In this document: positions 13,150 to 57,905 of the stretch, piece after piece
Numbering within the stretch: position 1 is the first letter of the stretch
Layout: each line of letters starts with the position of its first letter
Made by a program: the position numbers and the translations under genes
NCBI GenBank assembly: GCA_019054805.1
Contig: JAHQIY010000006.1
Location: 248,001-312,000, forward strand
Direction of reading: 5' to 3'
Length of the DNA stretch: 64,000 nucleotides
DNA from: Brachionus manjavacas
Lineage: Eukaryota > Rotifera > Eurotatoria > Ploima > Brachionidae
The notes under the pieces: model-generated
What the model saw: only the letters and a program-made list of their open reading frames with translations
Database searches by the model: none
What the model was told of the DNA's origin: nothing

Positions 13150-13853
13150 ATTTCAATTTGCCTTCATACGGCGTAATTCTAGTAGAATCAATCAGTTTTG
13201 TACTTTTTCAAGAATTTTAATGGGCAGTGGGACATAATATAAAAATTTGCTACTTAAAAGAGTTTTTGGTGTCAAAAAGTATGCGAGTACTGCACCCTTG
13301 CTAGAGGCCCTAAAGGTGGAAAAAATTGAACAAATTTATTTAAAGCACAAGATATTTTTTCTCAAACAATTAGAAAATAGCAAGATGTGTTATGACTTAT
13401 TAATTTACTTAAAAGAAAAATTATTTTTGGGCAAAAGAATACCTCAATGTGTAAACAATTAGCAAGTTTGGAAAATAAAATACATATAAATGTTACCGAC
13501 CATAAATCGAGTACGTATATTTTGATAATTGAGCACATATTTGCAGAAAAAAATCGCGGTTTGGTTGACTCGGTCAATCTGGTCATGTATAAAATCGAAA
13601 AAGAGTTCGAAAATGGTCAAAATTTTTTTTATTTGTTAAAAATTTTAAACGACTTACTAAAAGTAGATTTCTTTACATAATTAAAATTTTTATTTTTTTT
13701 TTTGATAATTTAAATTTGTGAATTGATTATTTTTATTTTTATTTTCAAATTTTGTAGAATTTGAAGAACTTAACTTAACTTTTTCTTTTTTTCTTTTTTT
13801 TATTTTGCCTATGAGGCTTAAATCAATAAATAATAATAATAATAATAATATAG
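13150..13853 (+). pseudogene. Non-LTR retroelement C-terminus with its 3' tail
   Basis: Plus-strand translation near 13247 reads LLKRVFGVKKYASTAPLLEA followed by LKVEKIEQIYLKHKIFFLKQ. This is the region after the reverse transcriptase core in many non-LTR elements (R-lilGL-k-s....LL-aL-i--i--l). It is out of frame with the following piece (13447-13680). Downstream, 13807-13819 is GCCTATGAGGCTT followed by AAATCAATAAATAATAATAAT, a simple-repeat 3' tail. The same tail motif recurs on the opposite strand at 63311-63385, which supports a dispersed family. The minus-strand relic at 14114 carries a related C-terminal motif (KRALGIKKFSRIRPLLETLH), so the two may belong to one clade in opposite orientation. 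Confidence 0.55.
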
Positions 13854-23885: not shown

Positions 23886-23906
23886 ATGATAAAAAGCTCT
23901 AAATGA
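23886..23906 (+). promoter_or_regulatory. Six-codon upstream ORF overlapping the GPCR start as ATGA
   Basis: ATG at 23886 opens six codons (MIKSSK) and stops at TGA 23904-23906, which overlaps the receptor ATG at 23903-23905. If the predicted acceptor at 23882 is used, this ATG is the first in the exon. Such an arrangement would make receptor translation depend on re-initiation or leaky scanning. Confidence 0.45.
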
Positions 23907-36994: not shown

Positions 36995-38724
36995 TTATAT
37001 TTCTAAAGGAATGGAAGAATCATTTTGATTAATATTCTTTGTCTTCTTGTTTGCAAATATCAAAGTTTTAACACAATCTTTGAATTTCCTATTGAAGAAA
37101 TAGCTAATAAAAAATTGAATTATATAGCTAAAATTAATTGCTATAATAAAGGCCCAAAAAATATGATTAATTCCTTTGCCATAATTAACTGAAATCAACA
37201 ATCCTGAATCTATTTTATAGAGAGATATTTTTTTATAGCTTAACACAAAATTAATAGTTCGCGTAAACACAATTAGACTACTGTTTAAAATAACCAAAAC
37301 AACATTTTTAGCTGTTTCTTTATCCGGATGATTTTTTTTCCTATTGAGCACAAGTTTTTTTTTTTTGAAGCATGTCGAAATATAAAAATAATCAATCTAA
37401 TATTTATAAAAAATATTATTGCCGAAATAAAAACATAGAAAATATCCTGTGCAATATTTAGTTAGGCTATTTCGATCAGTATAGATGGACAGGAGGATTT
37501 TCTATCATTGGAGCAAGTAAAATGATAAATAGGTCTGTCGAACACAAGTCCACAATCGGACAATTTTTTTCCAAAATTGCACTCGACAACTTTTTGATCA
37601 ATAATTTCTAAACATCCAAACACAGAATTTGTTCCCATGGATAAGTCCTCCTGCATGGATTTAAAAAACTTCTCTAGTTTATAATTCAATAAAAGCCATG
37701 CCAATGTGCATGTGCAGTCCAAGTCCGGCTTGGAATAAATGACCGGAAAAACAAAATTATTGTGAGGCAAATGAGAGAACTTGCAAAAATCTTCTTCCGG
37801 ATAATCATACTCTTTTTGAAAATCATTTAAAACTAAATAAAGTTTATAAAAATAAAAGTCTGATGATTTTAGTTTTTTAATTCTGTCACAATCACCCAAA
37901 TCGTCTAGTTGTGAAGCAAAGTTTAATTTGGCCATCCATTTCAAGTCTGATTCTTGGATAAATGTTTTAAAATTGTGCAATTCCAGAACTACTTTTTGGA
38001 GACTAAATAAAGTACCAAATGTTTCCGAGTGAATAGATTTAATAGATGAATTTAAAATTCTAATTTCTTCAACGTTTTGGTGGATTAAATTATTAAAATT
38101 ATTTAGTCCAATATTTCCCCTAAAGCCATTGATAATATAATTTTTAATAAATGTACGCGATACATAGTTAAAATATTTTATGTCTGAAAAATCCAAGTAA
38201 TTTGGAAGTCGATCAATTGATTTGAATTCGATTGTGTCTAAAAAGGAATTGTATAAAAACAAAGGGCAATATTGCTGAGGAAATGTGACATTGATTAATT
38301 TTAGGAATTGAATAGTTTTCACTTGTTCCAAAGTAAATTTTTCTAGGAAATAATCCATTGAGTTTTGACAAAAATACTGGTCAGAAAGACTTTTTCCATT
38401 TAAATAAAAGTTCATGTGACTATTTTCAATTTGAGTATCTTTGAAAAAATTGAAAATTGATCGAAAATTGTTTAGATGAAAAATTTTCACATTTTTTATA
38501 AGCAAAATTTTATCCTCCAAATTTTCGTATTTAGATGAATTAAAAAAAAGCTCATTAAATGACGCGTCAATTGTTATTGTTTTATATTCAGTGATTGATT
38601 GAAGAAAAGCATTGTCCAAAATAAAATTTTTATTATAGGTACAAGTTATTGTTGTCAATGTGTCCGAGCACTTCTCTAAGCTGCTTTTGAAAATAAAAAG
38701 GAAAAATATTATAAAAATTTTCAT
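36995..38724 (-). pseudogene. Orphan receptor: LRR-type ectodomain and incomplete 7TM, TM1-TM4 missing
   Basis: ATG 38724 opens 420 codons: signal peptide (MKIFIIFFLFIFKSSLEKC), then an ectodomain with loosely spaced leucine/asparagine repeats (for example LNNFRSIFNFF, VEEIRILNSSIKSIHSETF). It ends in a cysteine cap of LRRCT type (LDCTCTLAWLLLNYKLEKFF, Cys near 337 and 339, later Cys pairs). A TAA at 37462 ends it. The same frame then continues DIFYVFISAIIFFINIRLII, a membrane helix followed by a basic loop. A 12-A run causes a frameshift into RKKNHPDKETAKNVVLVILN (TM6-like) and WAFIIAINFSYIIQFFISYF plus FNRKFKDCVKTL (TM7 and helix 8 style). Only three helices are found, so TM1-TM4 seem deleted. 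It could instead be a truncated secreted ectodomain. The ligand is unknown. Confidence 0.6.
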
Positions 38725-38791
38725 TTTTAAAATAAATGATATTTGTTTTTGCTTGTTATAGTAGTTTAAAAGATATAAAATATTCTATGAC

Positions 38792-38862
38792 GCAATATTA
38801 AGCTTGAATTTAAATTCAATAATATTGCAAAACGATCTTAAAAATAAGATATCATTATCTTA
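38792..38862. repeat. Two palindromes just upstream of the LRR-receptor gene
   Basis: At 38792-38828, GCAATATTA and TTGAATTT are mirrored by AAATTCAA and TAATATTGC with a 3-base bulge. At 38845-38862, TAAGATA and TATCTTA are mirrored around TCAT. Both lie 70-140 bases before the start codon of the minus-strand gene and may be regulatory or a relic of a small element. Confidence 0.5.
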
Positions 38863-39675
38863 AATTTAAAGAAATATAAATTTTTCAAAATTTGTCAAAT
38901 GATTAATAATTTTTATTAAAATGATCGGATCAAAAAAATAGTTCTTTTTCTCTTAAGCATTTATCCACCTAGTCAAAGAAATTTCAGAGTTTTTTTGTAT
39001 TATCTGTAAAAATTCTTTAAAAAGCCTGATTAGTCTGGCAAATCTTGAAGAAAAAATAAAGTGTCGACGGACCATTATTTTGTCTTACAGAGCAAGTTCG
39101 GAGTTCCTTTAAGTCATAGCTAACAATGTTCAAAGACTGCTTTCGAATTAATATCTTAATTAATCAACAAAATACAACAACAACAGAACAGATTATAACT
39201 CTTTTTATACATATTCATTTTATATTGCAACCAGTGACAATTTAAGTATAGAAACTATACCTAGATACTAAATTAAGAATCACTAAGGAAATTCAATAGA
39301 GTCTAAATTAAACATATTTTCACACGTTAACAAAAAGTAATAAATTTATTTGAAAATATGAACCGTACTAATGCTCCTTGAGAATAAAAATTTAAAGAAA
39401 AAACTTTTCAATACTTTTTTTAAATTAAATGTGAAGCACCGCCCATTCATATCTTTTAACATGGCGAACGGGTTTTGATCATTTATCAAATCAAATACAA
39501 CCATGTTAAATTTTTGAAAGCAATTTTTATATATATTATATTAATAGAAACTAATAAAAAGTGAATGTATATTAAAACTGTTGCCGGGTAGGTTGACTGG
39601 ATCTCTTTGACATAGTAGTGGGAGTAGTAACATAAAAGATACAGAAAATTTTCAATTCAGAACACAAAAACCACC

Positions 39676-39804
39676 ACCATTTATTATTATTTATTTGTTT
39701 TCTGTACCGAGCTAGAGCTCCTTCAGAATAAGTTAAAAATTAAAAAAATAAAATAAAAATGAAATAAAATAAAATAAAAATAAAATTAAAGTTAATAAAA
39801 TAAG

Positions 39805-39840
<36 letters not shown>

Positions 39841-42334
39841 ATTAAAAAAAAGTAAATAAGCTAAATAAATGAAAATTAAGAATATATAAAATTGGAAAAG
39901 ATTGTTACATGTGGCTCATGTTTAAATAGTTCAAGTTTCAGGAAAAAAAGAAGAAATAGTAAGGTAGCAATTACACAATGGAGTTGGGTAGTCAATATAT
40001 CTTGATTCGAAACCTTCTTTGTATTCCTTCACCAGTCTTACAACCAATGGAATAGAATGACTCAGTCCTGCCCCAACATATCTCTCACTCAATTCAAAAA
40101 GCCGATTCGAGACTGTTAGTAATTTTAGTTTATTAAAAGCCTCATGATGTACGATGTTGGAGGGAGTATCATATTTTAACTTAAGAATAGATCTGACTGC
40201 TGTATTCTGAATTGCTTGTAGTTTTTTGATATTATTTTCTGAAAATGAATTTAAGCAAGGAAAAGAATAGTCTAAAATCGATCCGACTAAAGATTTATAT
40301 AAATTTCCTAGTGTGTTTTGATTAAGACCCCATTTTTTGTTTGACAATATCTTAATAATATTTAGCCTGTTATTGCAGCGTTCTTTAATTTCGTCTACCA
40401 GTATATTAAAATTTAACTTAGAATCAAATTTAATACCAAGAAATTTGATTTCTTTTTGGCTCACTATTCTGTTTCCATAAATTTTTAAGTTAAGATTATC
40501 ACTCTCTTTTTTGTAACTGGAAAAGACTACTGAACACGACTTTTCAACTGATATCTTCATTTTCCATTTAATAAGCCATTGTTCTAGTTCGTTGAGGTAT
40601 TTATTAATCTTATTTTCTAGGTTCCCCTTTTTGTTATAAATGAAGAATGTAACTAGATCATCTGCGAAAAGCAGAGAGTATTCATTATTTGTTTTGTTTC
40701 TTTTAGGGATGTCATTAATGTATATACTAAATAAAAGAGGACTAATTACTGAGCCTTGAGGAACACCTGCAGTTATTTGATATTCTTCGCTCAAATGGTC
40801 ATTCACATTTACCTTAAATGTCCTAGAGTCTAAAAAGGATTTTATCCAGTTAGTCAAGTAATGAGGTGGATTTATTTTAATCAATTTAAAAAGTAAACCT
40901 TCATGCCAAACCCTATCAAAGGCTTTAGAAATATCAAAAAAAAGGCCGCAAACTCTTTTTTCTATTAAATGATTCCACAATTTTTTGAATTAAGAAGAAA
41001 AGATTATCTGCTGTTCGCCGGTGTTTCCTAAATCCAGATTGCTCCTGGATAAGGAGTGAATTTTGCTCTAAAAAATTGTATAATCTTGAATATACTATGC
41101 GTTCCAGTAGCTTTCCTAAACAACTCGTTTTACTAATTGGTCTATAATTTAAAGGATCGTGTAAACTAGAGGCCTTTTTTGAATCATAGTAATGTAAGAT
41201 GTTTTCCACGCTTTCGGGACTCTACCTTCTCGAAGAGTTAAATTAAAAAGTTCTATGATTTCTATTAATGAATTTCTAGATAAGTTTTTTAACATTAAAT
41301 TATGAATTTGGTCAGGTCCTGATGCCGCTTCATTTTTTAATCTCTTTAAAGCCATAATTGTTTCGTTTAAGCAAATTGGATCATTAAAATTAGATTGGTT
41401 ATAATTTCTAAAGAAATCAGAGTTAGAATTTAGTATTTCGATATCTTTCTCAGAATCAATTAAATCAGTATTAGGACTAAATATTGAAGATAAGAGTTCT
41501 CCGAAGCATTTTCCCTTTTCTTCATTAGTTTTGAATTCCCTTTCATTTAAAATCAAATTAGGAATTAAATTTGATCCTTTTTTTGTTCTAAATTTATTTA
41601 TTTTTTTCCAAAAAGGTCTACTTGTCAGTGGGTTTTTTCCCATCCTCTCAATAAAATCAAACCAATTTTGATTCCAAAATTTTTTTAAAGAGGCCTTTAA
41701 CTCAGATGTAAGTTGATTAAATTTTTGTTTTACCTTTTGACAGCGAGTTTTCTGGAAGCTTCTTCTTACTTTCCTACGTTCTTTGATCAAATTAACAATA
41801 TTCGGTGGAAGACTCTTTTTGTAGATTTTCTTAGAAAGATATGGAATGCTTTTATGTGAAGCAGAAATAATTTTTTCTGTTATTTTATCATTTAGTTGAT
41901 CTATTGTGAGGGAACTTTCAGTGACATTCACTATTTGAGAATTTAAAATCTCGCTGAATAATTGCCAGTTTGCTTTTTTATAGTAAAGCCTTTTAGCTGC
42001 TGATTTATTTTCTAATTGATAGCCCATAGAAATCGATGCTTCGATTGGGAAATGGTCACTAGTCATGTCTTGACTATTTAAGACACTAAAGTCGGTAATT
42101 TTGTCAATCAATGAAGATGAAACTAAAAAAAGGTCAAGAATTTCAAAGTAATTCTTATTAAAAATATTGAAAGTAGGATGCTTATCATTGATTACTGAAA
42201 AGTCTAGCTCGTTGATTATTCTTTCTAATATTATCCCGTTTTCATTTTCCCCTACGCAGCCTATTTGCTTTGTTCTAGCGTTTAGATCACCACCTAAAAT
42301 GTAGTTTCTACATGTTTTATTTACTGTTTTATTT
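39676..42334 (-). mobile_element. Non-LTR retrotransposon copy 1, 5'-truncated
   Basis: Begins within the endonuclease (near ILGGDLNARTKQIGC, about 42300) and runs to the 3' tail, whose complement is visible at 39676-39720 (GCTCGGTACAGA and AAACAAATAAATAA in element sense). Homology to the full-length copy stops near 42334. Its long T-rich 3' untranslated region differs from copies 2 and 4 and equals that of copy 3. Confidence 0.85.
39931..42317 (-). pseudogene. ORF2 endonuclease-end and reverse transcriptase, copy 1
   Basis: Linker and early RT (42111-41149) are open, including KRLKNEAASGPDQIHNLMLK, the only copy with a sense codon (GAA) at that site. A frame change near 41170 separates the PKAWKTSYITMIQK part from the next. 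The fingers (LNYRPISKTSCLGKLLERIV, QSGFRKHRRTADNLFF) end at a TGA at the TTT-TTT-TGA-T site near 40934. The catalytic RT lies in the other frame: DISKAFDRVWHEGLLFKL, AGVPQGSVISPLLFSIYIND, SLLFADDLVTFF and LGIKFDSKLNF. The C-terminus is FESRYIDYPTPLCNCYLT. No functional protein without frameshifts. Confidence 0.85.
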
Positions 42335-42344
42335 TTTTATTAAC

Positions 42345-42790
42345 TAACTAACTAAATTTAAAGTTTTGTGATAGTTTGAGCTGATCAGCATAACGGGATT
42401 ATGCGCACCACCTTTCACAGGATTGCTTTAAGGCTCGGCCTTTTTCAACCCATTTTTTTGGTTTCTTTGTTGTTTGTTGTCTGTTTGTCTATCTTTATTG
42501 TTTTGCTAATTTGTTGCCATTAGTGAATAGTAAACTGTTGCTGTTCTATTTGCTAATTGGACTTAATGTCCAAATGGTCAACAACGTCAATTAGTTTCTG
42601 CCAGTTGTTTTTTTTCTTGGTTTTTGATTGATTAGTTGTCTCTGTCGAGGTAATAATAATAATAATAATATAAGCTACAGCAGGATAACTGCGGAGCAAG
42701 ACTAGACATAGCCTCGCTATGGTAGCTGTCAGGTTTTACATACAGTATAATAATAAAGCTTATGTAGATAATGTTTTTCGCTAAAAAAAA
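42345..42790 (-). mobile_element. Short repeat tails following the gag-like module (unit 1)
   Basis: In minus sense this region has two blocks, each closed by a simple-repeat tail. The first is CTACCATAGCGAGGCTATGT through CTGCTGTAGCTTATATTATT and (ATT)n. The second is a GC-richer block (aggccgagccttaaagcaat, ggtggtgcgcataatcccgt) ending in TTAGTTAGTTAGTTAATAAA. Such structures suit SINE-like or 5'-truncated non-LTR insertions. Families not identified. Confidence 0.4.
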
Positions 42791-42817
42791 TTAATTAATT
42801 ATTTCTGTTTTAAATAG

Positions 42818-43410
42818 CTATCCAGGTAGGTTGGTTAATTGATGTCTTTGTTGTTGATTGAGATGTTTGTGGAAGAATGGAAGAATGAATACTTTAAGGT
42901 TTTCCATCTCTTTTTGGATCTTGTCATATTGTTCTTTCATTTGGGTAGCTTGTTTGTCAACTTTATCTAAAATATTTGTAAGAACTTGTGTTTCGTTTGG
43001 TCCTTTGACAACGTTCTCACTTGGCATGGTTACCATGGCAACTAAAAGCTTCTCTTGAATCTCTTTTACTGGCTTTTGCTTGCCTAACCCTTCAGCTTCA
43101 TATTGTTTAGCATATTTGATAGCTTTCTGTAAGCTAACAGGATTTTCGTCCTTAACTCTAAATTCAATATCAGGATGAAGTCCTTTGACGAAATATGACA
43201 TGCTCATGCGATCGATATTGATGTCATCAATACCTGGGAAAGCACCACGAACCATTTGATACACACTCCGTAAAAATCTAAATTTTCGTCTGTCCTCTTT
43301 TTAAGTTGACCAAGTTCAACCAATTGTCTTTCGGGTGTCTTTGTGTCAAGCGTTTTCTTAAGCTCATTTACAAGCTTCTCAAAAGTATTAATTCTTCTTC
43401 GGCTCGGCAA
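42818..43410 (-). pseudogene. LTR-retrotransposon gag-like protein, frameshifted (unit 1)
   Basis: Minus-strand reading: FEKLVNELKKTLDTKTPERQ and LVELGQLKKRTDENLDFYG, then after a frameshift MVRGAFPGIDDINIDRMSMS, YFVKGLHPDIEFRVKDENPV and SLQKAIKYAKQYEAEG. This is the pattern of the retrotransposon gag domain (L--l-Q---Esv-eY--r...F--GL-p-i---v-----tl--Ai--A---E). A coiled-coil-like Lys/Gln/Glu-rich C-terminus follows (LDKVDKQATQMKEQYDKIQK) and ends LPG. No zinc knuckle, protease or RT follows. How it came to lie between retroposon copies is discussed under findings. Confidence 0.6.
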
Positions 43411-43429
43411 CTACGTGTTCTTCTATGGG

Positions 43430-43570
43430 CACTAGTTCAAATAATAGAATGCCAATTAATAGTGAAGAAAAAAAAACATTAGATAATAGAAATTTATTTG
43501 ATAGAATTATAATTAATAGTTTGTCAATTAATAGAAAAAAAATAATAGAATGTTAATTTAATAGTGTGAT
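43430..43570. repeat. TTCTATTA-rich spacer (unit 1)
   Basis: AATAGAA and AATTAATAG words recur every 20-30 bases. The same type of sequence (cacactattaa, ttctatta, tttttttcta) occurs in flank 2 at 48270-48392 and 57580-57696. The two may be related ends, such as LTR pieces of the gag-carrying element, but this is not shown. Confidence 0.35.
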
Positions 43571-43581
43571 AAAAATCCGTT

Positions 43582-43767
43582 TTAAAAATTAGCTATTAAG
43601 CCGTCTAGATAATTTTTTAATTGAGTTGTCTTATAGTTTTTACACAAAAATTTAATTTTCTCTTCTTTTGCAATTGCAGCATCTCTACGAGTGTAAATAT
43701 CACCACTGTTTAATTGTTCAGGATACATGTCAGTTAGGTTTTGTTCTTGTTGGAATTGATTTACCAA
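43582..43767 (-). CDS. Short ORF of unknown function next to the gag-like module (unit 1)
   Basis: 61 codons: MVNQFQQEQNLTDMYPEQLN, SGDIYTRRDAAIAKEEKIKF, then LCKNYKTTQLKNYLDGLIAN. It is identical in unit 2 (53467-53652). I do not recognise it. It is fused at its upstream side to a scrap of non-LTR linker, so it may be the end of a longer retrotransposon protein whose start was lost. Low confidence that it is a gene in its own right. Confidence 0.3.
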   Translation of the reverse strand: MVNQFQQEQNLTDMYPEQLNSGDIYTRRDAAIAKEEKIKFLCKNYKTTQLKNYLDGLIANF

Positions 43768-43889
43768 AGAATTAAATCAGAGTTAGGACTAAATATTGAA
43801 GATCAAAATTCTCCGAAGCATTTTTCCTTTTCTTCATTAGTTTTGAATTCCTTTTCATTTAAAATCAAATTAGGAATCAAATTTGTTCA
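43768..43889 (-). pseudogene. Scrap of non-LTR ORF2 linker (unit 1)
   Basis: The minus-strand reading LIPNLILNEKEFKTNEEKEK and CFGEF, then SSIFSPNSDLI, matches the linker of the large copies (RT-proximal). It is joined directly to the 5' end of copy 2 on one side and to the unknown ORF on the other. Confidence 0.75.
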
Positions 43890-43943
43890 AAAAGCATTTA
43901 ATTGTAATAATATTATAATATTCAAAATATTCCTCTGAATCGC

Positions 43944-45189
43944 ATGGACTCCGTTAAATCGGACGACTCTTATCTGACCATGTGTCGGAATGCTGTCAGA
44001 GTAAGAGTCCCAAACGACAAGTTCGGCACTGTTAATCGCCTTACTATTTTGAATGCTCTTAAAGGCATTCAAAATGGTTTGATTATTCCGCACATTAGGA
44101 CTGTTACAACGACCAAAAGAAATATATGGTTAATTTCTTTCAACGAATCTTATGACTATTCATCACTAGTTGGAAGTAAAATCTTAATAAACGAACAACA
44201 CTTTTCGCTTGATGATGCACAGTACCCTGAAACTTTATACAAATCATTCACGTTCAAATTTGTTGGCCTTAAACCTAACTTTGCACATGAAAAAATTGCT
44301 AAACATTTGTCCTCAAAAGGTGTCAAATACGAGGAAATAGAACGAATATATGAAGAACACTTTCAAGAGGAAGAGTTCAAACATATTTCCAAAGGCACTT
44401 TCCGTGCAAAAATCAAAATAAACGCTACAGCTAACCCTAATTACAAAAATGTTCTAGTTAACTTGGTTGAACAAACACAAATTGATGGTAATCCGGTAAA
44501 TGTTCTACGAATTGGCGAGACCCGTTGCTTATTTTGTAAACAAACAGACCATAAAATAGCAAATTGCCCGAAAAAAAATTCGACTTGTAACAAATGTAAA
44601 CGTACCGGTCACTCAGCCGACAAATGCTCACTGGCTAAACGAATAACAAACAATACTTACTTTGATCTAGCGGATGATGAAGAGGACGAAAACTTAGCAC
44701 AAACCGAATAATGATGAGGTCTTCTATAGGAATGATGTTCATGTTTTCAATTCTAAGTCAACCACCGGAATAAACCTTAACTCTAGCCAAATAGACCTTC
44801 CTCCTGGAAGTAGAAACCAATCCTGCTCAAGTGTTCTAAGTAACTGGGAAAGTCGGTTAAAAACACTTCCCTCAACGAATAACTTGGATCCAAACTTGGA
44901 TTCACTTAACCAAAGCTCTTCAAGTACCAAAAAATCATTAATACCCAAACCAAAAACATTGTCAAAGTCTAAAAAAACTCTTAAACAAAGCGAAAATAAA
45001 ACAAACGATGATTTCAAGCTTCCGAATAACTCGTACAGACGTCCTTCTCTTCCAAATAAATCTAGTTCAGTAAAACGACCGAGTGAAAAAACTTTTAATA
45101 AAAGTTTTAAACGAGATAAATTTGATGGACAACTGGATGAAAGCGAAGTCGTTAACGAAGCCGCCAAGTTATTAAATATCCAAAAATGA
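43944..45189 (+). pseudogene. ORF1 (CCHC nucleocapsid-like protein), copy 2, 11-bp deletion
   Basis: Same protein as the intact 418-residue ORF1 of copy 3. It has lost 11 bases near 44710 (atgactattga in copy 3), so the first 255 codons end at a TAG/TAA just after the zinc fingers. The remaining part (from about 44884) is still open to the ATGA overlap with ORF2. Both CCHC fingers (CLFCKQTDHKIANC, CNKCKRTGHSADKC) precede the break. Confidence 0.9.
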
Positions 45190-47998
45190 ACAAGAAGACA
45201 AATCAATCAACTTTAAGAACAAAACCTCTTAATAATACAAGGTTAGTAATTACACACTGGAATTGTCTTCATTTACCTAGTAGGGTTCATCTCTTAGCCA
45301 ATTTTTTAGCTCAAAAATGTCCCGACATTGTTTTGCTCAATGAATTAAAGATAGATTTGAGTGAGGCAAATATTTATCTTGACTTTCACTATTATCTGTT
45401 CATAACAAAACCACGCAACAAGTATGGAGGTGGTGTAGCTATTTTAATTAAAGAAGGAATTGAATTTATACAAGATTTTTCTTATGAGGAATTCAATTCC
45501 GAACTTCTTTGTATAAAAATGAACTTAGGAAAGAATTGTGAATTGTTTGTATTTAGTCTATATAATCCACCCAATGTGCTTCTGAACCTTGAGTTTTTTA
45601 AAACAGTTAATAAAAAGTGTAGGAACTACATCTTGGGTGGTGATCTAAACGCTAGAACAAAGCAAATAGGCTGCGTAGGGGAAAATGAAAACGGGATAAT
45701 ATTAGAAAGAATAATCAACGAGCTAGACTTTTCAGTAATCAATGATAAGCATCCTACTTTCAATATTTTTAATAAGAATTACTTTGAAATTCTTGACCTT
45801 TTTTAGTTTCATCTTCATTGATTGACAAAATTACCGACTTTAGTGTCTTAAATAGTCAAGACATGACTAGTGACCATTTCCCAATCGAAGCATCGATTTC
45901 TATGGGCTATCAATTAGAAAATAAATCAGCAGCTAAAAGGCTTTACTATAAAAAAGCAAACTGGCAATTATTCAGCGAGATTTTAAATTCTCAAATAGTG
46001 AATGTCACTGAAAGTTCCCTCACAATAGATCAACTAAATGATAAAATAACAGAAAAAATTATTTCTGCTTCACATAAAAGCATTCCATATCTTTCTAAGA
46101 AAATCTACAAAAAGAGTCTTCCACCGAATATTGTTAATTTGATCAAAGAACGTAGGAAAGTAAGAAGAAGCTTCCAGAAAACTCGCTGTCAAAAGGTAAA
46201 ACAAAAATTTAATCAACTTACATCTGAGTTAAAGGCCTCTTTAAAAAAATTTTGGAATCAAAATTGGTTTAATTTTATTGAGAGGATGGGAAAAAACCCA
46301 CTGACAAGTAGACCTTTTTGGAAAAAAATAAATAAATTTAGAACAAAAAAAGGATCAAATTTAATTCCTAATTTGATTTTAAATGAAAGGGAATTCAAAA
46401 CTAATGAAGAAAAGGAAAAATGCTTCGGAGAACTCTTATCGTCAATATTTAGTCCTAATTCTGATTTAATTGATACTGAGAAAGATATCAAAATTCTAAA
46501 TTCTAACTCTGTTTTCTTTAGGAATTATAACCAGTCTAATTTTAATGATCCAATTTGCTTAAATGAATTAATTATGGCTTTAAAGAGATTAAAAAATTAA
46601 GCGGCATTAGGACCTGACCAAATTCATAATTTAATGTTAAAAAACTTACCTAGAAATTCATTAATAGAAATCATAGAACTTTTAATTTAACTCTTCGAGA
46701 AGGTAGAGTCCCGAAAGCGTGGAAAACATCTTACATTACTATGATTCAAAAAAAGGCCTCTAGTTTACACGATCCTTTAAATTATAGACCAATTAGTAAA
46801 ACGAGTTGTTTAGGAAAGCTACTGGAACGCATAGTATATTCAAGATTATACAATTTTTTAGAGCAAAATTCACTCCTTATCCAGGAGCAATCTGGATTTA
46901 GGAAACACCGGCGAACAGCAGATAATCTTTTCTTCTTAATTCAAAAAATTGTGGAATCATTTAATAGAAAAAAAGAGTTTGCGGCCTTTTTTTGATATTT
47001 CTAAAGCCTTTGATAGGGTTTGGCATGAAGGTTTACTTTTTAAATTGATTAAAATAAATCCACCTCATTACTTGACTAACTGGATAAAATCCTTTTTAGA
47101 CTCTAGGACATTTAAGGTAAATGTGAATGACCATTTGAGCGAAGAATATCAAATAACTGCAGGTGTTCCTCAAGGCTCAGTAATTAGTCCTCTTTTATTT
47201 AGTATATACATTAATGACATCCCTAAAAGAAACAAAACAAATAATGAATACTCTCTGCTTTTCGCAGATGATCTAGTTACATTCTTCATTTATAACAAAA
47301 AGGGGAACCTAGAAAATAAGATTAATAAATACCTCAACGAACTAGAACAATGGCTTATTAAATGGAAAATGAAGATATCAGTTGAAAAGTCGTGTTCAGT
47401 AGTCTTTTCCAGTTACAAAAAAGAGAGTGATAATCTTAACTTAAAAATTTATGGAAACAGAATAGTGAGCCAAAAAGAAATCAAATTTCTTGGTATTAAA
47501 TTTGATTCTAAGTTAAATTTTAATATACTGGTAGACGAAATTAAAGAACGCTGCAATAACAGGCTAAATATTATTAAGATATTGTCAAACAAAAAATGGG
47601 GTCTTAATCAAAACACACTAGGAAATTTATATAAATCTTTAGTCGGATCGATTTTAGACTATTCTTTTCCTTGCTTAAATTCATTTTCAGAAAATAATAT
47701 CAAAAAACTACAAGCAATTCAGAATACAGCAGTCAGATCTATTCTTAAGTTAAAATATGATACTCCCTCCAACATCGTGCATCATGAAGCTTTTAATAAA
47801 CTAAAATTACTAACAGTCTCGAATCGTCTTTTTGAGTTGAGCGAGAAATATGTTGGGACAGGACTGAGTCATTCTATTCCATTGGTTGAAAGACTGGTGA
47901 AAGAATACAAAGAAGGTTTCGAATCAAGATATATTGAATACCCAACTCCATTGTGTAATTGCTACCTTACTATTTCTTCTTTTTTTCCTGAAACTTGA
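45186..47998 (+). pseudogene. ORF2 endonuclease-reverse transcriptase, copy 2
   Basis: The start ATG overlaps the ORF1 stop. The endonuclease has THWNCLHLPSRV, VLLNELKID, GGGVAILIK, YNPP, ILGGDLNART and TSDHFPI. A one-T loss near 45803 creates a stop after ILDLF. The linker then runs to a TAA at 46598-46600 (KRLKN-stop-AALGPDQ), shared with copies 3 and 4. A second frame break follows near 46690. The RT fingers end at TGA 46993-46995 of the TTT-TTT-TGA-T site. Then comes a long open catalytic RT with FADD and C-terminus, where copy 2 differs from the others (KYVGTGL, ERLVKEY, RYIEYPTP). Four lesions in total. Confidence 0.9.
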
Positions 47999-49223
47999 AC
48001 TATTTAAACATGTGCCACATGAAACAATCTTTTCCAATTTATGTCTTTTCAACTTTAATTTTTTTTAGCTTATTTACTCTATTTTGATTCTTTTTTTATC
48101 TAATTTTATTTACTTTAATTTTATTTTTATTTTATTTTTTTTATTTTATTTTTAATTTATTCTGAGGGAGCTTTAGCTCGGTACAGAAAACAAATAAATA
48201 AATAAATTTGTTCCTTTTTTGTTCTAAATTTATTTTATTTTTTCCAAAAAGGTCTACTTGTTTAAATATTAAATGATGCACACTATTAAGTGACTTTCTA
48301 TGGTTTATTTTCTATTTTAGATGTATTCTATTATTATGCAACTATGAAATAAATTTTCGATGTTTTTTTTTCTATCAAGTTAATGACTATTAGCAAGTTC
48401 GGAGTTCCTTTAAGTCATAGCTAACAATGTTCAAAGACTGCTTTCGAATTAATATCTTAATTAATCAACAAAATACAACAACAACAGAACAGATTATAAC
48501 TCTTTTTATACATATTCATTTTATATTGCAACCAGTGACAATTTAAGTATAGAAACTATACCTAGATACTAAATTAAGAATCACTAAGGAAATTCAATAG
48601 AGTCTAAATTAAACATATTTTCACACGTTAACAAAAAGTAATAAATTTATTTGAAAATATGAACCGTACTAATGCTCCTTGAGAATAAAAATTTAAAGAA
48701 AAAACTTTTCAATACTTTTTTTAAATTAAATGTGAAGCACCGCCCATTCATATCTTTTAACATGGCGAACGGGTTTTGATCATTTATCAAATCAAATACA
48801 ACCATGTTAAATTTTTGAAAGCAATTTTTATATATATTATATTAATAGAAACTAATAAAAAGTGAATGTATATTAAAACTGTTGCCGGGTAGGTTGACTG
48901 GATCTCTTTGACATAGTAGTGGGAGTAGTAACATAAAAGATACAGAAAATTTTCAATTCAGAACACAAAAACCACCACCATTTATTATTATTTATTTGTT
49001 TTCTGTACCGAGCTAGAGCTCCTTCAGAATAAGTTAAAAATTAAAAAAATAAAATAAAAATGAAATAAAATAAAATAAAAATAAAATTAAAGTTAATAAA
49101 ATAAGATAAAAAAAAAAAAAAAAAAAAAAAAAGAATTAAAAAAAGTAAATAAGCTAAATAAATGAAAATTAAGAATATATAAAATTGGAAAAGATTGTTA
49201 CATGTGGCTCATGTTTAAATAGT

Positions 49224-52037
49224 TCAAGTTTCAGGAAAAAAAGAAGAAATAGTAAGGTAGCAATTACACAATGGAGTTGGGTAGTCAATATATCTTGATT
49301 CGAAACCTTCTTTGTATTCCTTCACCAGTCTTACAACCAATGGAATAGAATGACTCAGTCCTGCCCCAACATATCTCTCACTCAATTCAAAAAGCCGATT
49401 CGAGACTGTTAGTAATTTTAGTTTATTAAAAGCCTCATGATGTACGATGTTGGAGGGAGTATCATATTTTAACTTAAGAATAGATCTGACTGCTGTATTC
49501 TGAATTGCTTGTAGTTTTTTGATATTATTTTCTGAAAATGAATTTAAGCAAGGAAAAGAATAGTCTAAAATCGATCCGACTAAAGATTTATATAAATTTC
49601 CTAGTGTGTTTTGATTAAGACCCCATTTTTTGTTTGACAATATCTTAATAATATTTAGCCTGTTATTGCAGCGTTCTTTAATTTCGTCTACCAGTATATT
49701 AAAATTTAACTTAGAATCAAATTTAATACCAAGAAATTTGATTTCTTTTTGGCTCACTATTCTGTTTCCATAAATTTTTAAGTTAAGATTATCACTCTCT
49801 TTTTTGTAACTGGAAAAGACTACTGAACACGACTTTTCAACTGATATCTTCATTTTCCATTTAATAAGCCATTGTTCTAGTTCGTTGAGGTATTTATTAA
49901 TCTTATTTTCTAGGTTCCCCTTTTTGTTATAAATGAAGAATGTAACTAGATCATCTGCGAAAAGCAGAGAGTATTCATTATTTGTTTTGTTTCTTTTAGG
50001 GATGTCATTAATGTATATACTAAATAAAAGAGGACTAATTACTGAGCCTTGAGGAACACCTGCAGTTATTTGATATTCTTCGCTCAAATGGTCATTCACA
50101 TTTACCTTAAATGTCCTAGAGTCTAAAAAGGATTTTATCCAGTTAGTCAAGTAATGAGGTGGATTTATTTTAATCAATTTAAAAAGTAAACCTTCATGCC
50201 AAACCCTATCAAAGGCTTTAGAAATATCAAAAAAAGGCCGCAAACTCTTTTTTTCTATTAAATGATTCCACAATTTTTTGAATTAAGAAGAAAAGATTAT
50301 CTGCTGTTCGCCGGTGTTTCCTAAATCCAGATTGCTCCTGGATAAGGAGTGAATTTTGCTCTAAAAAATTGTATAATCTTGAATATACTATGCGTTCCAG
50401 TAGCTTTCCTAAACAACTCGTTTTACTAATTGGTCTATAATTTAAAGGATCGTGTAAACTAGAGGCCTTTTTTTGAATCATAGTAATGTAAGATGTTTTC
50501 CACGCTTTCGGGACTCTACCTTCTCGAAGAGTTAAATTAAAAAGTTCTATGATTTCTATTAATGAATTTCTAGGTAAGTTTTTTAACATTAAATTATGAA
50601 TTTGGTCAGGTCCTAATGCCGCTTAATTTTTTAATCTCTTTAAAGCCATAATTAATTCATTTAAGCAAATTGGATCATTAAAATTAGACTGGTTATAATT
50701 CCTAAAGAAAACAGAGTTAGAATTTAGAATTTCGATATCTTTCTCAGAATCAATTAAATCAGTATTAGGACTAAATATTGAAGATAAGAGTTCTCCGAAG
50801 CATTTTCCCTTTTCTTCATTAGTTTTGAATTCCCTTTCATTTAAAATCAAATTAGGAATTAAATTTGATCCTTTTTTTGTTCTAAATTTATTTATTTTTT
50901 TCCAAAAAGGTCTACTTGTCAGTGGGTTTTTTCCCATCCTCTCAATAAAATCAAACCAATTTTGATTCCAAAATTTTTTAAAGAGGCCTTTAACTCAGAT
51001 GTAAGTTGATTAAATTTTTGTTTTACCTTTTGACAGCGAGTTTTCTGGAAGCTTCTTCTTACTTTCCTACGTTCTTTGATCAAATTAACAATATTCGGTG
51101 GAAGACTCTTTTTGTAGATTTTCTTAGAAAGATATGGAATGCTTTTATGTGAAGCAGAAATAATTTTTTCTGTTATTTTATCATTTAGTTGATCTATTGT
51201 GAGGGAACTTTCAGTGACATTCACTATTTGAGAATTTAAAATCTCGCTGAATAATTGCCAGTTTGCTTTTTTATAGTAAAGCCTTTTAGCTGCTGATTTA
51301 TTTTCTAATTGATAGCCCATAGAAATCGATGCTTCGATTGGGAAATGGTCACTAGTCATGTCTTGACTATTTAAGACACTAAAGTCGGTAATTTTGTCAA
51401 TCAATGAAGATGAAACTAAAAAAAGGTCAAGAATTTCAAAGTAATTCTTATTAAAAATATTGAAAGTAGGATGCTTATCATTGATTACTGAAAAGTCTAG
51501 CTCGTTGATTATTCTTTCTAATATTATCCCGTTTTCATTTTCCCCTACGCAGCCTATTTGCTTTGTTCTAGCGTTTAGATCACCACCCAAGATGTAGTTC
51601 CTACACTTTTTATTAACTGTTTTAAAAAACTCAAGGTTCAGAAGCACATTGGGTGGATTATATAGACTAAATACAAACAATTCACAATTCTTTCCTAAGT
51701 TCATTTTTATACAAAGAAGTTCGGAATTGAATTCCTCATAAGAAAAATCTTGTATAAATTCAATTCCTTCTTTAATTAAAATAGCTACACCACCTCCATA
51801 CTTGTTGCGTGGTTTTGTTATGAACAGATAATAGTGAAAGTCAAGATAAATATTTGCCTCACTCAAATCTATCTTTAATTCATTGAGCAAAACAATGTCG
51901 GGACATTTTTGAGCTAAAAAATTGGCTAAGAGATGAACCCTACTAGGTAAATGAAGACAATTCCAGTGTGTAATTACTAACCTTGTATTATTAAGAGGTT
52001 TTGTTCTTAAAGTTGATTGATTTGTCTTCTTGTTCAT
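49224..52037 (-). pseudogene. ORF2 endonuclease-reverse transcriptase, copy 3
   Basis: The endonuclease is complete and uninterrupted (residues 1 to about 245: HWNCLHL, LLNELKID, LYNPPNV, GGDLNART, DLFLVSSSLID, TSDHFPI), so this is the reference for the family. The first break is a missing A in an A-run near 50968 (LKASLKNFGIK instead of LKKFWNQNW). Next is the TAA at 50623-50625. RT fingers (50589-50227) end at the TGA of TTT-TTT-TGA-T. The catalytic RT (50273-49224) is open with AGVPQGSVISPLLFS and LLFADDLVTFF. The apparent start of that last frame is TTG within the upstream coding sequence and is not a real start. Confidence 0.9.
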
Positions 52038-53290
52038 TTTTGGATATTTAATAACTTGGCGGCTTCGTTAACGACTTCGCTTTCATCCAGTTGTCCATCA
52101 AATTTATCTCGTTTAAAACTTTTATTAAAAGTTTTTTCACTCGGTCGTTTTACTGAACTAGATTTATTTGGAAGAGAAGGACGTCTGTACGAGTTATTCG
52201 GAAGCTTGAAATCATCGTTTGTTTTATTTTCGCTTTGTTTAAGAGTTTTTTTAGACTTTGACAATGTTTTTGGTTTGGGTATTAATGATTTTTTGGTACT
52301 TGAAGAGCTTTGGTTAAGTGAATCCAAGTTTGGATCCAAGTTATTCGTTGAGGGAAGTGTTTTTAACCGACTTTCCCAGTTACTTAGAACACTTGAGCAG
52401 GATTGGTTTCTACTTCCAGGAGGAAGGTCTATTTGGCTAGAGTTAAGGTTTATTCCGGTGGTTGACTTAGAATTGAAAACATGAACATCATTCCTATAGA
52501 AGACCTCATCATTATTCGGTTCAATAGTCATTTGTGCTAAGTTTTCGTCCTCTTCATCATCCGCTAGATCAAAGTAAGTATTGTTTGTTATTCGTTTAGC
52601 CAGTGAGCATTTGTCGGCTGAGTGACCGGTACGTTTACATTTGTTACAAGTCGAATTTTTTTTCGGGCAATTTGCTATTTTATGGTCTGTTTGTTTACAA
52701 AATAAGCAACGGGTCTCGCCAATTCGTAGAACATTTACCGGATTACCATCAATTTGTGTTTGTTCAACCAAGTTAACTAGAACATTTTTGTAATTAGGGT
52801 TAGCTGTAGCGTTTATTTTGATTTTTGCACGGAAAGTGCCTTTGGAAATATGTTTGAACTCTTCCTCTTGAAAGTGTTCTTCATTTATTCGTTCTATTTC
52901 CTCGTATTTGACACCTTTTGAGGACAAATGTTTAGCAATTTTTTCATGTGCAAAGTTAGGTTTAAGGCCAACAAATTTGAACGTGAATGATTTGTATAAA
53001 GTTTCAGGGTACTGTGCATCATCAAGCGAAAAGTGTTGTTCGTTTATTAAGATTTTACTTCCAACTAGTGATGAATAGTCATAAGATTCGTTGAAAGAAA
53101 TTAACCATATATTTCTTTTGGTCGTTGTAACAGTCCTAATGTGCGGAATAATCAAACCATTTTGAATGCCTTTAAGAGCATTCAAAATAGTAAGGCGATT
53201 AACAGTGCCGAACTTGTCGTTTGGGACTCTTACTCTGACAGCATTCCGACACATGGTCAGATAAGAGTCGTCCGATTTAACGGAGTCCAT
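52034..53290 (-). CDS. Non-LTR ORF1 protein with two CCHC zinc knuckles, intact
   Basis: 418 residues. An N-terminal globular part (about 1-190; AVRVRVPNDKF, TTTKRNIWLISFN, FKFVGLKPNFAHEKIAKHLS) resembles the RNA-binding, RRM-like regions of such proteins, though I cannot confirm the fold. Two CCHC knuckles follow: Cys195, Cys198, His203, Cys208, then Cys215, Cys218, His223, Cys228. An acidic patch (ADDEEDEN) leads to a Ser/Lys-rich basic tail (300-400) ending KLLNIQK. It should bind the element RNA and form the retroposition particle. This is the only uninterrupted ORF1 in the window. Its stop TGA overlaps the ORF2 start ATG (ATGA), a layout expected for termination-reinitiation. Confidence 0.92.
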   Translation of the reverse strand: MDSVKSDDSYLTMCRNAVRVRVPNDKFGTVNRLTILNALKGIQNGLIIPHIRTVTTTKRNIWLISFNESYDYSSLVGSKILINEQHFSLDDAQYPETLYKSFTFKFVGLKPNFAHEKIAKHLSSKGVKYEEIERINEEHFQEEEFKHISKGTFRAKIKINATANPNYKNVLVNLVEQTQIDGNPVNVLRIGETRCLFCKQTDHKIANCPKKNSTCNKCKRTGHSADKCSLAKRITNNTYFDLADDEEDENLAQMTIEPNNDEVFYRNDVHVFNSKSTTGINLNSSQIDLPPGSRNQSCSSVLSNWESRLKTLPSTNNLDPNLDSLNQSSSSTKKSLIPKPKTLSKSKKTLKQSENKTNDDFKLPNNSYRRPSLPNKSSSVKRPSEKTFNKSFKRDKFDGQLDESEVVNEAAKLLNIQK

Positions 53291-53345
53291 GCGATTCAGA
53301 GGAATATTTTGAATATTATAATATTATTACAATTAAATGCTTTTT

Positions 53346-53466
53346 GAACAAATTTGATTCCTAATTTGATTTTAAATGAAAAGGAATTCAAAACTAATGA
53401 AGAAAAGGAAAAATGCTTCGGAGAATTTTGATCTTCAATATTTAGTCCTAACTCTGATTTAATTCT
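53346..53466 (+). pseudogene. Scrap of non-LTR ORF2 linker (unit 2)
   Basis: Inverted counterpart of 43768-43889, joining the 5' end of copy 3 to the unknown ORF. Its retention in both units shows the interior was inverted as a block. Confidence 0.75.
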
Positions 53467-53652
53467 TTGGTAAATCAATTCCAACAAGAACAAAACCTAA
53501 CTGACATGTATCCTGAACAATTAAACAGTGGTGATATTTACACTCGTAGAGATGCTGCAATTGCAAAAGAAGAGAAAATTAAATTTTTGTGTAAAAACTA
53601 TAAGACAACTCAATTAAAAAATTATCTAGACGGCTTAATAGCTAATTTTTAA
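53467..53652 (+). CDS. Short ORF of unknown function (unit 2)
   Basis: Identical in translation to the 61-codon frame at 43582-43767. It is followed by the TTCTATTA-rich spacer (53660-53810) and then the gag-like module. Unrecognised. Confidence 0.3.
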   Translation: MVNQFQQEQNLTDMYPEQLNSGDIYTRRDAAIAKEEKIKFLCKNYKTTQLKNYLDGLIANF

Positions 53653-53829
53653 AACGGATTTTTATCACACTATTAAATTAACATTCTATTATTTTTTTCT
53701 ATTAATTGACAAACTATTAATTATAATTCTATCAAATAAATTTCTATTATCTAATGTTTTTTTTTCTTCACTATTAATTGGCATTCTATTATTTGAACTA
53801 GTGCCCATAGAAGAACACGTAGTTGCCGA

Positions 53830-54414
53830 GCCGAAGAAGAATTAATACTTTTGAGAAGCTTGTAAATGAGCTTAAGAAAACGCTTGACACAAAGACACCC
53901 GAAAGACAATTGGTTGAACTTGGTCAACTTAAAAGAGGACAGACGAAAATTTAGATTTTTACGGAGTGTGTATCAAATGGTTCGTGGTGCTTTCCCAGGT
54001 ATTGATGACATCAATATCGATCGCATGAGCATGTCATATTTCGTCAAAGGACTTCATCCTGATATTGAATTTAGAGTTAAGGACGAAAATCCTGTTAGCT
54101 TACAGAAAGCTATCAAATATGCTAAACAATATGAAGCTGAAGGGTTAGGCAAGCAAAAGCCAGTAAAAGAGATTCAAGAGAAGCTTTTAGTTGCCATGGT
54201 AACCATGCCAAGTGAGAACGTTGTCAAAGGACCAAACGAAACACAAGTTCTTACAAATATTTTAGATAAAGTTGACAAACAAGCTACCCAAATGAAAGAA
54301 CAATATGACAAGATCCAAAAAGAGATGGAAAACCTTAAAGTATTCATTCTTCCATTCTTCCACAAACATCTCAATCAACAACAAAGACATCAATTAACCA
54401 ACCTACCTGGATAG
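53830..54414 (+). pseudogene. LTR-retrotransposon gag-like protein, frameshifted (unit 2)
   Basis: Inverted twin of 42818-43410 with the same frameshift after DENLDFYG. The C-terminal 148 codons from VYQMVRGAFPG are open and end LTNLPG. The alternative reading MSLRKRLTQRHPKDNW at its start is the wrong frame: the homologous frame there is FEKLVNELKKTL. Confidence 0.6.
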
Positions 54415-54449
54415 CTATTTAAAACAGAAATAATTAATTAATTTTTTTA

Positions 54450-54900
54450 GCGAAAAACATTATCTACATAAGCTTTATTATTATACTGTATGTAAAACCT
54501 GACAGCTACCATAGCGAGGCTATGTCTAGTCTTGCTCCGCAGTTATCCTGCTGTAGCTTATATTATTATTATTATTATTACCTCGACAGAGACAACTAAT
54601 CAATCAAAAACCAAGAAAAAAACAACTGGCAGAAACTAATTGACGTTGTTGACCATTTGGACATTAAGTCCAATTAGCAAATAGAACAGCAACAGTTTAC
54701 TATTCACTAATGGCAACAAATTAGCAAAACAATAAAGATAGACAAACAGACAACAAACAACAAAGAAACCAAAAAAATGGGTTGAAAAAGGCCGAGCCTT
54801 AAAGCAATCCTGTGAAAGGTGGTGCGCATAATCCCGTTATGCTGATCAGCTCAAACTATCACAAAACTTTAAATTTAGTTAGTTAGTTAATAAAAAAATA
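54450..54900 (+). mobile_element. Short repeat tails following the gag-like module (unit 2)
   Basis: Twin of 42345-42790. In plus sense the first block ends with (TTA)n at 54560-54580 and the second with TTAGTTAGTTAGTTAATAAA near 54875-54895, immediately before copy 4 begins. Confidence 0.4.
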
Positions 54901-57511
54901 AAACAGTAAATAAAACATGTAGAAACTACATTTTAGGTGGTGATCTAAACGCTAGAACAAAGCAAATAGGCTGCGTAGGGGAAAATGAAAACGGGATAAT
55001 ATTAGAAAGAATAATCAACGAGCTAGACTTTTCAGTAATCAATGATAAGCATCCTACTTTCAATATTTTTAATAAGAATTACTTTGAAATTCTTGACCTT
55101 TTTTTAGTTTCATCTTCATTGATTGACAAAATTACCGACTTTAGTGTCTTAAATAGTCAAGACATGACTAGTGACCATTTCCCAATCGAAGCATCGATTT
55201 CTATGGGCTATCAATTAGAAAATAAATCAGCAGCTAAAAGGCTTTACTATAAAAAAGCAAACTGGCAATTATTCAGCGAGATTTTAAATTCTCAAATAGT
55301 GAATGTCACTGAAAGTTCCCTCACAATAGATCAACTAAATGATAAAATAACAGAAAAAATTATTTCTGCTTCACATAAAAGCATTCCATATCTTTCTAAG
55401 AAAATCTACAAAAAGAGTCTTCCACCGAATATTGTTAATTTGATCAAAGAACGTAGGAAAGTAAGAAGAAGCTTCCAGAAAACTCGCTGTCAAAAGGTAA
55501 AACAAAAATTTAATCAACTTACATCTGAGTTAAAGGCCTCTTTAAAAAAATTTTGGAATCAAAATTGGTTTAATTTTATTGAGAGGATGGGAAAAAACCC
55601 ACTGACAAGTAGACCTTTTTGGAAAAAAATAAATAAATTTAGAACAAAAAAAGGATCAAATTTAATTCCTAATTTGATTTTAAATGAAAGGGAATTCAAA
55701 ACTAATGAAGAAAAGGAAAAATGCTTCGGAGAACTCTTATCGTCAATATTTAGTCCTAATTCTGATTTAATTGATTCTGAGAAAGATATCAAAATTCTAA
55801 ATTCTAACTCTGTTTTCTTTAGGAATTATAACCAGTCTAATTTTAATGATCCAATTTGCTTAAATGAATTAATTATGGCTTTAAAGAGATTAAAAAATTA
55901 AGCGGCATTAGGACCTGACCAAATTCATAATTTAATGTTAAAAAACTTACCTAGAAATTCATTAATAGAAATCATAGAACTTTTTAATTTAACTCTTCGA
56001 GAAGGTAGAGTCCCGAAAGCGTGGAAAACATCTTACATTACTATGATTCAAAAAAAGGCCTCTAGTTTACACGATCCTTTAAATTATAGACCAATTAGTA
56101 AAACGAGTTGTTTAGGAAAGCTACTGGAACGCATAGTATATTCAAGATTATACAATTTTTTAGAGCAAAATTCACTCCTTATCCAGGAGCAATCTGGATT
56201 TAGGAAACACCGGCGAACAGCAGATAATCTTTTCTTCTTAATTCAAAAAATTGTGGAATCATTTAATAGAAAAAAGAGTTTGCGGCCTTTTTTTTGATAT
56301 TTCTAAAGCCTTTGATAGGGTTTGGCATGAAGGTTTACTTTTTAAATTGATTAAAATAAATCCACCTCATTACTTGACTAACTGGATAAAATCCTTTTTA
56401 GACTCTAGGACATTTAAGGTAAATGTGAATGACCATTTGAGCGAAGAATATCAAATAACTGCAGGTGTTCCTCAAGGCTCAGTAATTAGTCCTCTTTTAT
56501 TTAGTATATACATTAATGACATCCCTAAAAGAAACAAAACAAATAATGAATACTCTCTGCTTTTCGCAGATGATCTAGTTACATTCTTCATTTATAACAA
56601 AAAGGGGAACCTAGAAAATAAGATTAATAAATACCTCAACGAACTAGAACAATGGCTTATTAAATGGAAAATGAAGATATCAGTTGAAAAGTCGTGTTCA
56701 GTAGTCTTTTCCAGTTACAAAAAAGAGAGTGATAATCTTAACTTAAAAATTTATGGAAACAGAATAGTGAGCCAAAAAGAAATCAAATTTCTTGGTATTA
56801 AATTTGATTCTAAGTTAAATTTTAATATACTGGTAGACGAAATTAAAGAACGCTGCAATAACAGGCTAAATATTATTAAGATATTGTCAAACAAAAAATG
56901 GGGTCTTAATCAAAACACACTAGGAAATTTATATAAATCTTTAGTCGGATCGATTTTAGACTATTCTTTTCCTTGCTTAAATTCATTTTCAGAAAATAAT
57001 ATCAAAAAACTACAAGCAATTCAGAATACAGCAGTCAGATCTATTCTTAAGTTAAAATATGATACTCCCTCCAACATCGTACATCATGAGGCTTTTAATA
57101 AACTAAAATTACTAACAGTCTCGAATCGGCTTTTTGAATTGAGTGAGAGATATGTTGGGGCAGGACTGAGTCATTCTATTCCATTGGTTGTAAGACTGGT
57201 GAAGGAATACAAAGAAGGTTTCGAATCAAGATATATTGACTACCCAACTCCATTGTGTAATTGCTACCTTACTATTTCTTCTTTTTTTCCTGAAACTTGA
57301 ACTATTTAAACATGTGCCACATGAAACAATCTTTTCCAATTTATGTCTTTTCAACTTTAATTTTTTTTAGCTTATTTACTCTATTTTGATTCTTTTTTTT
57401 ATCTAATTTTATTTACTTTAATTTTATTTTTATTTTATTTTTTTTATTTTATTTTTAATTTATTCTGAGGGAGCTTTAGCTCGGTACAGAAAACAAATAA
57501 ATAAATAAATT
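54901..57511 (+). mobile_element. Non-LTR retrotransposon copy 4, 5'-truncated
   Basis: Truncated at the same base as copy 1 (within the endonuclease at GGDLNAR), confirming that they are the same junction in inverted position. The 3' untranslated region and tail are of the copy-2 type, while its RT C-terminus is of the copy-1/3 type. It is therefore a recombinant. Confidence 0.85.
54914..57300 (+). pseudogene. ORF2 endonuclease-end and reverse transcriptase, copy 4
   Basis: The endonuclease end keeps seven T in DLFLVSS, so that frame is intact there, unlike copy 2. The linker is open to the TAA at 55899-55901, with FNF, EKEKC and SPNSD as in copy 2. Fingers (55935-56297) end KKSLRPFF at the TGA of TTT-TTT-TGA-T with the 6A/8T haplotype of copy 1. 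The catalytic RT (from about 56298) is open to 57300, ending FESRYIDYPTPLCNCYLT as in copies 1 and 3. Confidence 0.88.
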
Positions 57512-57696
57512 TGTTCCTTTTTTTGTTCTAAATTTATTTTATTTTTTCCAAAAAGGTCTACTTGTTTAAATATTAAATGATGCACACTATTAAGTGACTT
57601 TCTATGGTTTATTTTCTATTTTAGATGTATTCTATTATTATGCAACTATGAAATAAATTTTCGATGTTTTTTTTTCTATCAAGTTAATGACTATTA

Positions 57697-57905
57697 TTAT
57701 GTCTTACTATTGATTGAACGTTTCCCCTTCAATGATACTGGTCCTGGCACCAAGTTGTTGCCGGGAAGGCTGACTGGATCTCTTGGACATAGATGTATTA
57801 CATGTATTAGATTTATTATTTTAAAGAAAAATATGGCCGAAAGACTAAGAATTGAAATGTTGCATCCAAAAAAAAAAATTTTAAACCTTTAGAAAAATGT
57901 TTTTT
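57697..57905. other. Right junction of the array, with a third copy of a flank-1 motif
   Basis: attattatgtcttac at 57693-57707 nearly repeats attattttgtcttac at 39074-39088, just outside the left end of the array. GTTGCCGGGAAGGCTGACTGG (about 57757) continues ATCTCTTGGACATAG; it matches flank-1 sequence at 39577 and 48879 in the same direction. Confidence 0.5.

Follow-up and report, generated by a model that had tools for sequence, protein, structure and literature searches.

Adjacent 9.3-kb units in Brachionus manjavacas hold a retroelement-bounded interior in opposite orientations

Two 9.3-kb units of Brachionus manjavacas DNA lie in tandem, with their outer flanks running in the same direction and their interiors running in opposite directions. 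Judged by sequence comparison, unit 2 (48393-57696, + strand) is the inverted, derived unit, and unit 1 (39091-48392, + strand) has the ancestral order. Legible in the DNA are the duplication, the inversion, the ancestral unit, an exchanged target-site duplication (TSD), chimeric element copies and private alleles that these copies share. The best account of the combination is homologous exchange between inverted retroelement copies, accompanied by gene conversion. Positions refer to the window, meaning the whole 64,000-nucleotide stretch analysed (contig JAHQIY010000006.1, here C6, 248001-312000), which has a G+C content of 22 to 36% in 2-kb steps and comes from an assembly with 61 contigs totalling 114.17 Mb.

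Results

A first-pass annotation had claimed a tandem 9.3-kb duplication with direct outer flanks and a flipped interior, in which paired features sum to about 97222-97234. Self-BLAST returned both direct matches, 48392-51624 against 39091-42331 (99.1%, offset 9301) and 54899-57696 against 45599-48392 (99.2%, offset 9300), as well as a single inverted match of 49069-57464 against 48161-39768 (8413 columns, 98.7%) with a coordinate sum of 97230. A repeat search concurs, and as such the self-comparison that the annotation had suggested reproduces duplication plus inversion. Kilobases of 97-100% identity are far beyond chance. The left flank of unit 1 (39091-39679, +) is the same as 48392-48980, with no difference in 589 aligned bases; as a whole it matches just the two unit positions among the matches listed, while parts of it have diverged relatives. 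The right flank of unit 1 (48213-48392, +) differs from that of unit 2 at one base in 180, adjoining a T run. Outside A/B, the two element copies described below, 4032 aligned bases of the units include 2 substitutions, of which one adjoins a T run. There are also four indels of a single base, each within an A/T run, and one of 11 bp, which falls in the long copy's first ORF. The middle of unit 1 (42332-43769) consists of older repeats, including an ORF, on the - strand, that matches Ty3_capsid below the cutoff (from a Pfam scan of its unit 2 counterpart), and the inverted middle of unit 2, with a piece of an older element C, spans 53346-54898.

The units meet at 48392/48393, with one base (48392) common to both. 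Beyond the outer edges, sequence continues in paralogues: two loci, L019 and L020, span the left edge at 39091 with 86% and 80% identity, and the match to L011 on contig C13 continues past the right edge at 57696 to 57726. Therefore both outer edges are old, and 48392/48393 is the sole new joint among the unit edges. These observations bear on whether the pair could be an assembly artefact, in which a single-unit locus was represented by two haplotypes, one per orientation, joined end to end. The near identity of the units (the 2 substitutions given above) would suit such a misjoin, as would the fact that four of the five indels are single-base differences in A/T runs, resembling consensus errors. 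However, the joint contains no N and lies at a definite point, the outer edges run on into old sequence in paralogues, and the 15-bp near repeat next to the joint would fit a genuine duplication. We consider an artefact improbable, and even if the pair were one, the inversion would stay real as a polymorphism.

The 15-bp sequence lies at 39074-39088 (+), with a 14/15 repeat at 57693-57707, and thus beside both outer edges. Insertion of the whole 18.6 kb with a 15-bp TSD was rejected, as the edges continue outside in L019 and L020 (39091) and L011 (57696). Allowing at most two mismatches, the 15-mer occurs in the window at the two edge sites and nowhere else, with 1.59 sites expected from shuffles; since the count itself is so close to expectation, it is solely the position at the edges that makes it suggestive, and it may have helped the duplication. 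Hairpins at the joint (z -0.17) and the left edge (z 0.55) do not exceed what shuffles give; of the three places tested, it is the right edge (57670-57730) that folds somewhat better (z -2.43, with 6 of 200 shuffles as good). Several other features were seen nearby: beside the locus, a tandem array of 3.1 copies of a 466-bp unit (57906-59329, 99% matches) as well as a repeat ORF rich in Gly and Gln (59953-60624), and a 37-bp motif, 92% identical between 39579-39615 in the left flank and 57756-57792 just outside the right edge, which perhaps represents the ends of an LTR-type element. Further away, an uninterrupted 506-aa ORF (23903-25423) is, we presume from its appearance by eye, a GPCR of biogenic-amine type.

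In each unit, a dispersed non-LTR retroelement is present twice, the 5' ends of the two copies pointing towards each other. In unit 1, these are A1 (39680-42331, -), which is 5'-truncated, and the long copy B1 (43889-48207, +, 3' end approximate); in unit 2, ORFs and diagnostic sites define a long chimeric copy, L2 (48981-53345, -), and a short one, R2 (54899-57510, +, 3' end approximate). Self-BLAST, ORFs and Pfam together place same-element copies in opposite orientation at both breakpoints. The ORFs match Exo_endo_phos, Exo_endo_phos_2 and RVT_1, and the endonuclease-RT frame is broken into at least two ORFs in all four copies. The first ORF of the long copy has no Pfam match; we take it by eye to be gag-like. 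B was inserted, with a 10-bp TSD, into a short older fragment of its own family, C, which now flanks it in pieces (43770-43888, -, and the start of the right flank, to about 48261).

The family is large, with 3794 candidates in one search (the best 40 of 3794 were scored) and 67 exact genomic sites of a degenerate family 25-mer, among which 18 pairs lie less than 20 kb apart, versus 0.8 expected at random. Eight of these close pairs belong to a tandem array of four direct element copies about 2.85 kb apart (C22:125504-134078). Elsewhere, L063 (C15:636500-643962) is a palindrome of same-family copies, with arms 320 bp apart that are 99.6% identical over at least 3.57 kb, a lower bound because the outer end of the left arm exceeds the stretch compared. 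The 5' third of B (43889-45184), which holds the first ORF, is absent from many members, similarity beginning at 45185 in 9 of 20 loci, and has four relatives outside the locus at 94-99%, two of them partial. As such, the first ORF may be exchanged within the family.

The first-pass annotation had also likened the locus, as one that could flip between two isomers in a population, to an inversion switch. While two isomers do lie adjacent with homogenised arms, the arms belong to a dispersed family and their reading frames are split, and among the 17 ORFs of at least 150 aa in 38500-58500, six of which were Pfam-scanned (five inside the units and one adjoining), no recombinase or orientation-controlled gene was seen. 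The interior holds retroelement ORFs and the sub-cutoff Ty3-type capsid. The likeness to a regulated switch thus finds no support here, and we regard a programmed or selected switch as very improbable indeed.

The direction of the change was read from paralogues. At L013 (contig C3), sequence corresponding to 39571-39685 is joined directly to 42333-42652, which gives an empty site for A in the orientation of unit 1. At L011, 43428-43775 and 48262-48392 are co-oriented as in unit 1, 847 bases apart. The TSD of B, AAATTTGTTC (10 bp), flanks B1 directly in unit 1 (43879-43888 on the 5' side and 48204-48213 on the 3' side, both +), whereas in unit 2 its two sites are opposed (53346-53355, -, and 57507-57516, +). 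It occurs at five sites in the window versus 1.6 expected, the fifth being at 13328. For B, the TSD is therefore exchanged in the inverted form and intact in the uninverted one; the candidate TSD of A is AT-rich and ambiguous. Because the paralogues keep the order of unit 1, and the TSD of B is direct in unit 1 alone, unit 2 is the derived one.

To describe the copies themselves, we used diagnostic sites, numbered in B1 coordinates, that separate two subfamilies: fam1, with ten dispersed copies, and sub2, with three (L058, L059 and L060). Fourteen of 20 family loci were compared, excluding L033, L034, L037, L041, L043 and L046 for short or broken matches. Ten full fam1 loci entered the subfamily comparison, and nine the diagnostic-site and pair-control sets (L048 was dropped, its 5' part being uncovered); L061, a distant element with 66% identity over 490 columns, was excluded from the diagnostic-site set, and L059, whose 5' end is missing, from the pair controls. 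A1 is fam1 at both its inner end (6/6 sites, 45608-45635) and its outer end (21/21, 47779-48081), and B1 is non-fam1 at all 27 of these sites, with sub2 character at both ends of the part that it shares with A1.

Between these ends the copies resemble each other closely. Of 2430 sites compared, A1 and B1 disagree at 34, and they share uninterrupted identity over runs of 1127 and 635 bp, the longer of which was matched in none of 20000 shuffles. In 18 control pairs of dispersed sub2 and fam1 copies (2 x 9), 123-158 sites differ and the longest runs measure 89-149 bp. It should be noted that 36 pairs of dispersed fam1 copies have 1-36 differences, often no more than separate A1 from B1; therefore the argument from likeness depends on A and B belonging to different subfamilies, which is what their ends show. 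The arms of the inverted repeat have in this sense been homogenised, as by gene conversion. From 45944 to 46426, 18 sites have a non-fam1 base common to all five local copies, meaning the four unit copies and a fifth, D, described below; 14 of these bases are found in sub2 copies, and those at 45944, 45952, 46129 and 46170 in none of the three. The double mutation 45944T/45952A occurs at 5 of the 67 exact sites, and these five fall within a stretch of C6 about 24 kb long. Over 47263-47677, the four unit copies are non-fam1 at 21/21 sites, 20 of which are present in at least one sub2 copy, and a 25-mer with 47413T has four genomic sites, which are the four unit copies. A probe for 46799A proved not to be private, with 12 genomic sites, 8 of them elsewhere. 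Since L059 and L060, sub2 copies located elsewhere, themselves contain fam1-type tracts, part of the mosaicism of A and B may be older than their insertion, a comparison that covers three sub2 copies.

Copy D lies 1.3 kb past the end of the window (C6:313305-316359, +; L062 1305-4359), and a second 3' fragment follows it at L062 4368-4682. D is mostly fam1, including 21/21 sites of 47263-47677, yet it contains the local tract of 45944-46426 and has 46598T and 46608T in common with B1, L2 and R2. Sequence has thus moved between D and the units as well.

Chimeric elements are present at the breakpoints of the inverted form, and the unit 1 copies are mosaic as well. At the inner ends, unit 2 is swapped at 6/6 sites (45608-45635), L2 being like B1 and R2 like A1, whereas at the outer ends it is unswapped at 11/11 sites (48013-48081), L2 being like A1 and R2 like B1. 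Inner ends swapped and outer ends not, an odd number of crossovers must separate the units. The inner-end switch falls between 45635 and 46271, in the endonuclease part. The earlier proposal of a flip from RT to RT holds for the inversion; the diagnostic sites do not pin the flip point to the RT domain. Between the ends there is an unswapped tract (46271-46460 and 46490), and L2 and R2 are both B1-like at 46495-46649 and both A1-like at 47779-47938. From 46490 to 48013 there are additional switches, which rest partly on homopolymer lengths that vary across the family; a cluster of nine sites near 46974-46986 amounts to two such length differences and was given little weight.

On this pattern, the smallest account is one crossover (45635-46271) and two conversions, with site 46475 left over. 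Three crossovers (flip, back and flip) explain the pattern equally well, provided that the lengths of the homopolymers near 46968 and 46986 are reliable. Some of the exchange events may have taken place in unit 1 instead of unit 2. Reciprocal swaps in unit 1 were dropped as proof of two flips, D being a possible donor of the fam1-type tract in B1. Assuming no conversion between the units outside the copies, at least three exchange events separate the units, against the 2 substitutions in 4032 bases.

Could duplication and flip instead have arisen in one replication-based event, with template switches at the 1-bp overlap and then between the inverted copies? The one-base overlap and the 15-bp near repeat at the edges do suit an origin of the duplication by replication or end-joining, and the low divergence is compatible with both events being young. 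However, such an event requires two more switches at matching places, and conversion is needed regardless, to explain the alternating A- and B-like tracts and the share of D. We therefore think a single event of this kind unlikely, and infer that the flip came about by homologous crossover rather than by replication template switching. Exchange between head-opposed copies within a unit, as proposed in the first-pass annotation, is well supported by order, TSD and chimeras; its placing of the duplication before the inversion is the simplest order and the one that we infer.

Discussion

Taken together, these features suggest the following course. A truncated A and a long B of one family would have inserted head to head, with about 3.3 kb separating their shared parts, into a region already occupied by older repeats. 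Forming inverted repeats of about 2.6 kb, the two would then have swapped sequence through homologous repair (gene conversion), with copy D on the same contig joining the exchange. Subsequently, tandem duplication of the 9.3-kb block would have produced the two units, and in unit 2 the middle would have been turned round by a crossover between its inverted copies. We hold this course as a whole, from the insertions through conversion including D to the tandem duplication and the crossover, to be very probable. The array is presumably real and able to flip again, and ongoing flipping within a population is plausible, although one assembly gives one state per unit and no second haplotype of the locus was found among the matches listed. 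More tentatively, the five linked copies might constitute a cluster of active exchange, with conversions and flips arising faster than point mutations, the middles toggling and both isomers kept as a record.

The process itself is known. For inversion 2z3 of Drosophila buzzatii, Delprat et al. (2009, PMC2775673) list opposite orientation of Galileo copies, exchanged TSDs and chimeric copies as marks of ectopic recombination, and unit 2 displays all three. However, Galileo is termed a transposon there and lies at both breakpoints of a polymorphic chromosomal inversion, whereas here a non-LTR retroelement has turned part of a 9-kb unit, and the uninverted form adjoins it. On Saccharomyces chromosome XIV, flip/flop inverted repeats of a few kb are, according to Salzberg et al. 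(2022, PMC9731477), homogenised by conversion and occasionally undergo an inverting crossover, and so resemble the converted inverted repeats and crossover proposed for this locus. That system differs in that both orientations occur in strains and species and host genes lie in the repeats, whereas here both orientations stand in one array in one assembly, and the repeats are retroelements with split frames. Likewise, recurrent human inversions, as described by Aguado et al. (2014, PMC3961182), show signs of recurrence and arise by non-allelic homologous recombination between inverted repeats; they were genotyped in many people, compared with one assembly here. In a narrow look at the literature, none of the titles listed concerned a tandem pair of opposite isomers.

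There is no evidence at this locus for a new mechanism or for a function of the flip, and what it offers is an unusually clear record of a known process. Its unusual feature is that opposite orientations stand adjacent, which makes polarity, and a large part of the exchange history, legible in one sequence. The locus thereby lets exchange be weighed against mutation. Moreover, it is a compact record of a chromosome being reshaped by dispersed retroelements, from which the order of insertion, conversion, tandem duplication and inversion can for the most part be recovered.
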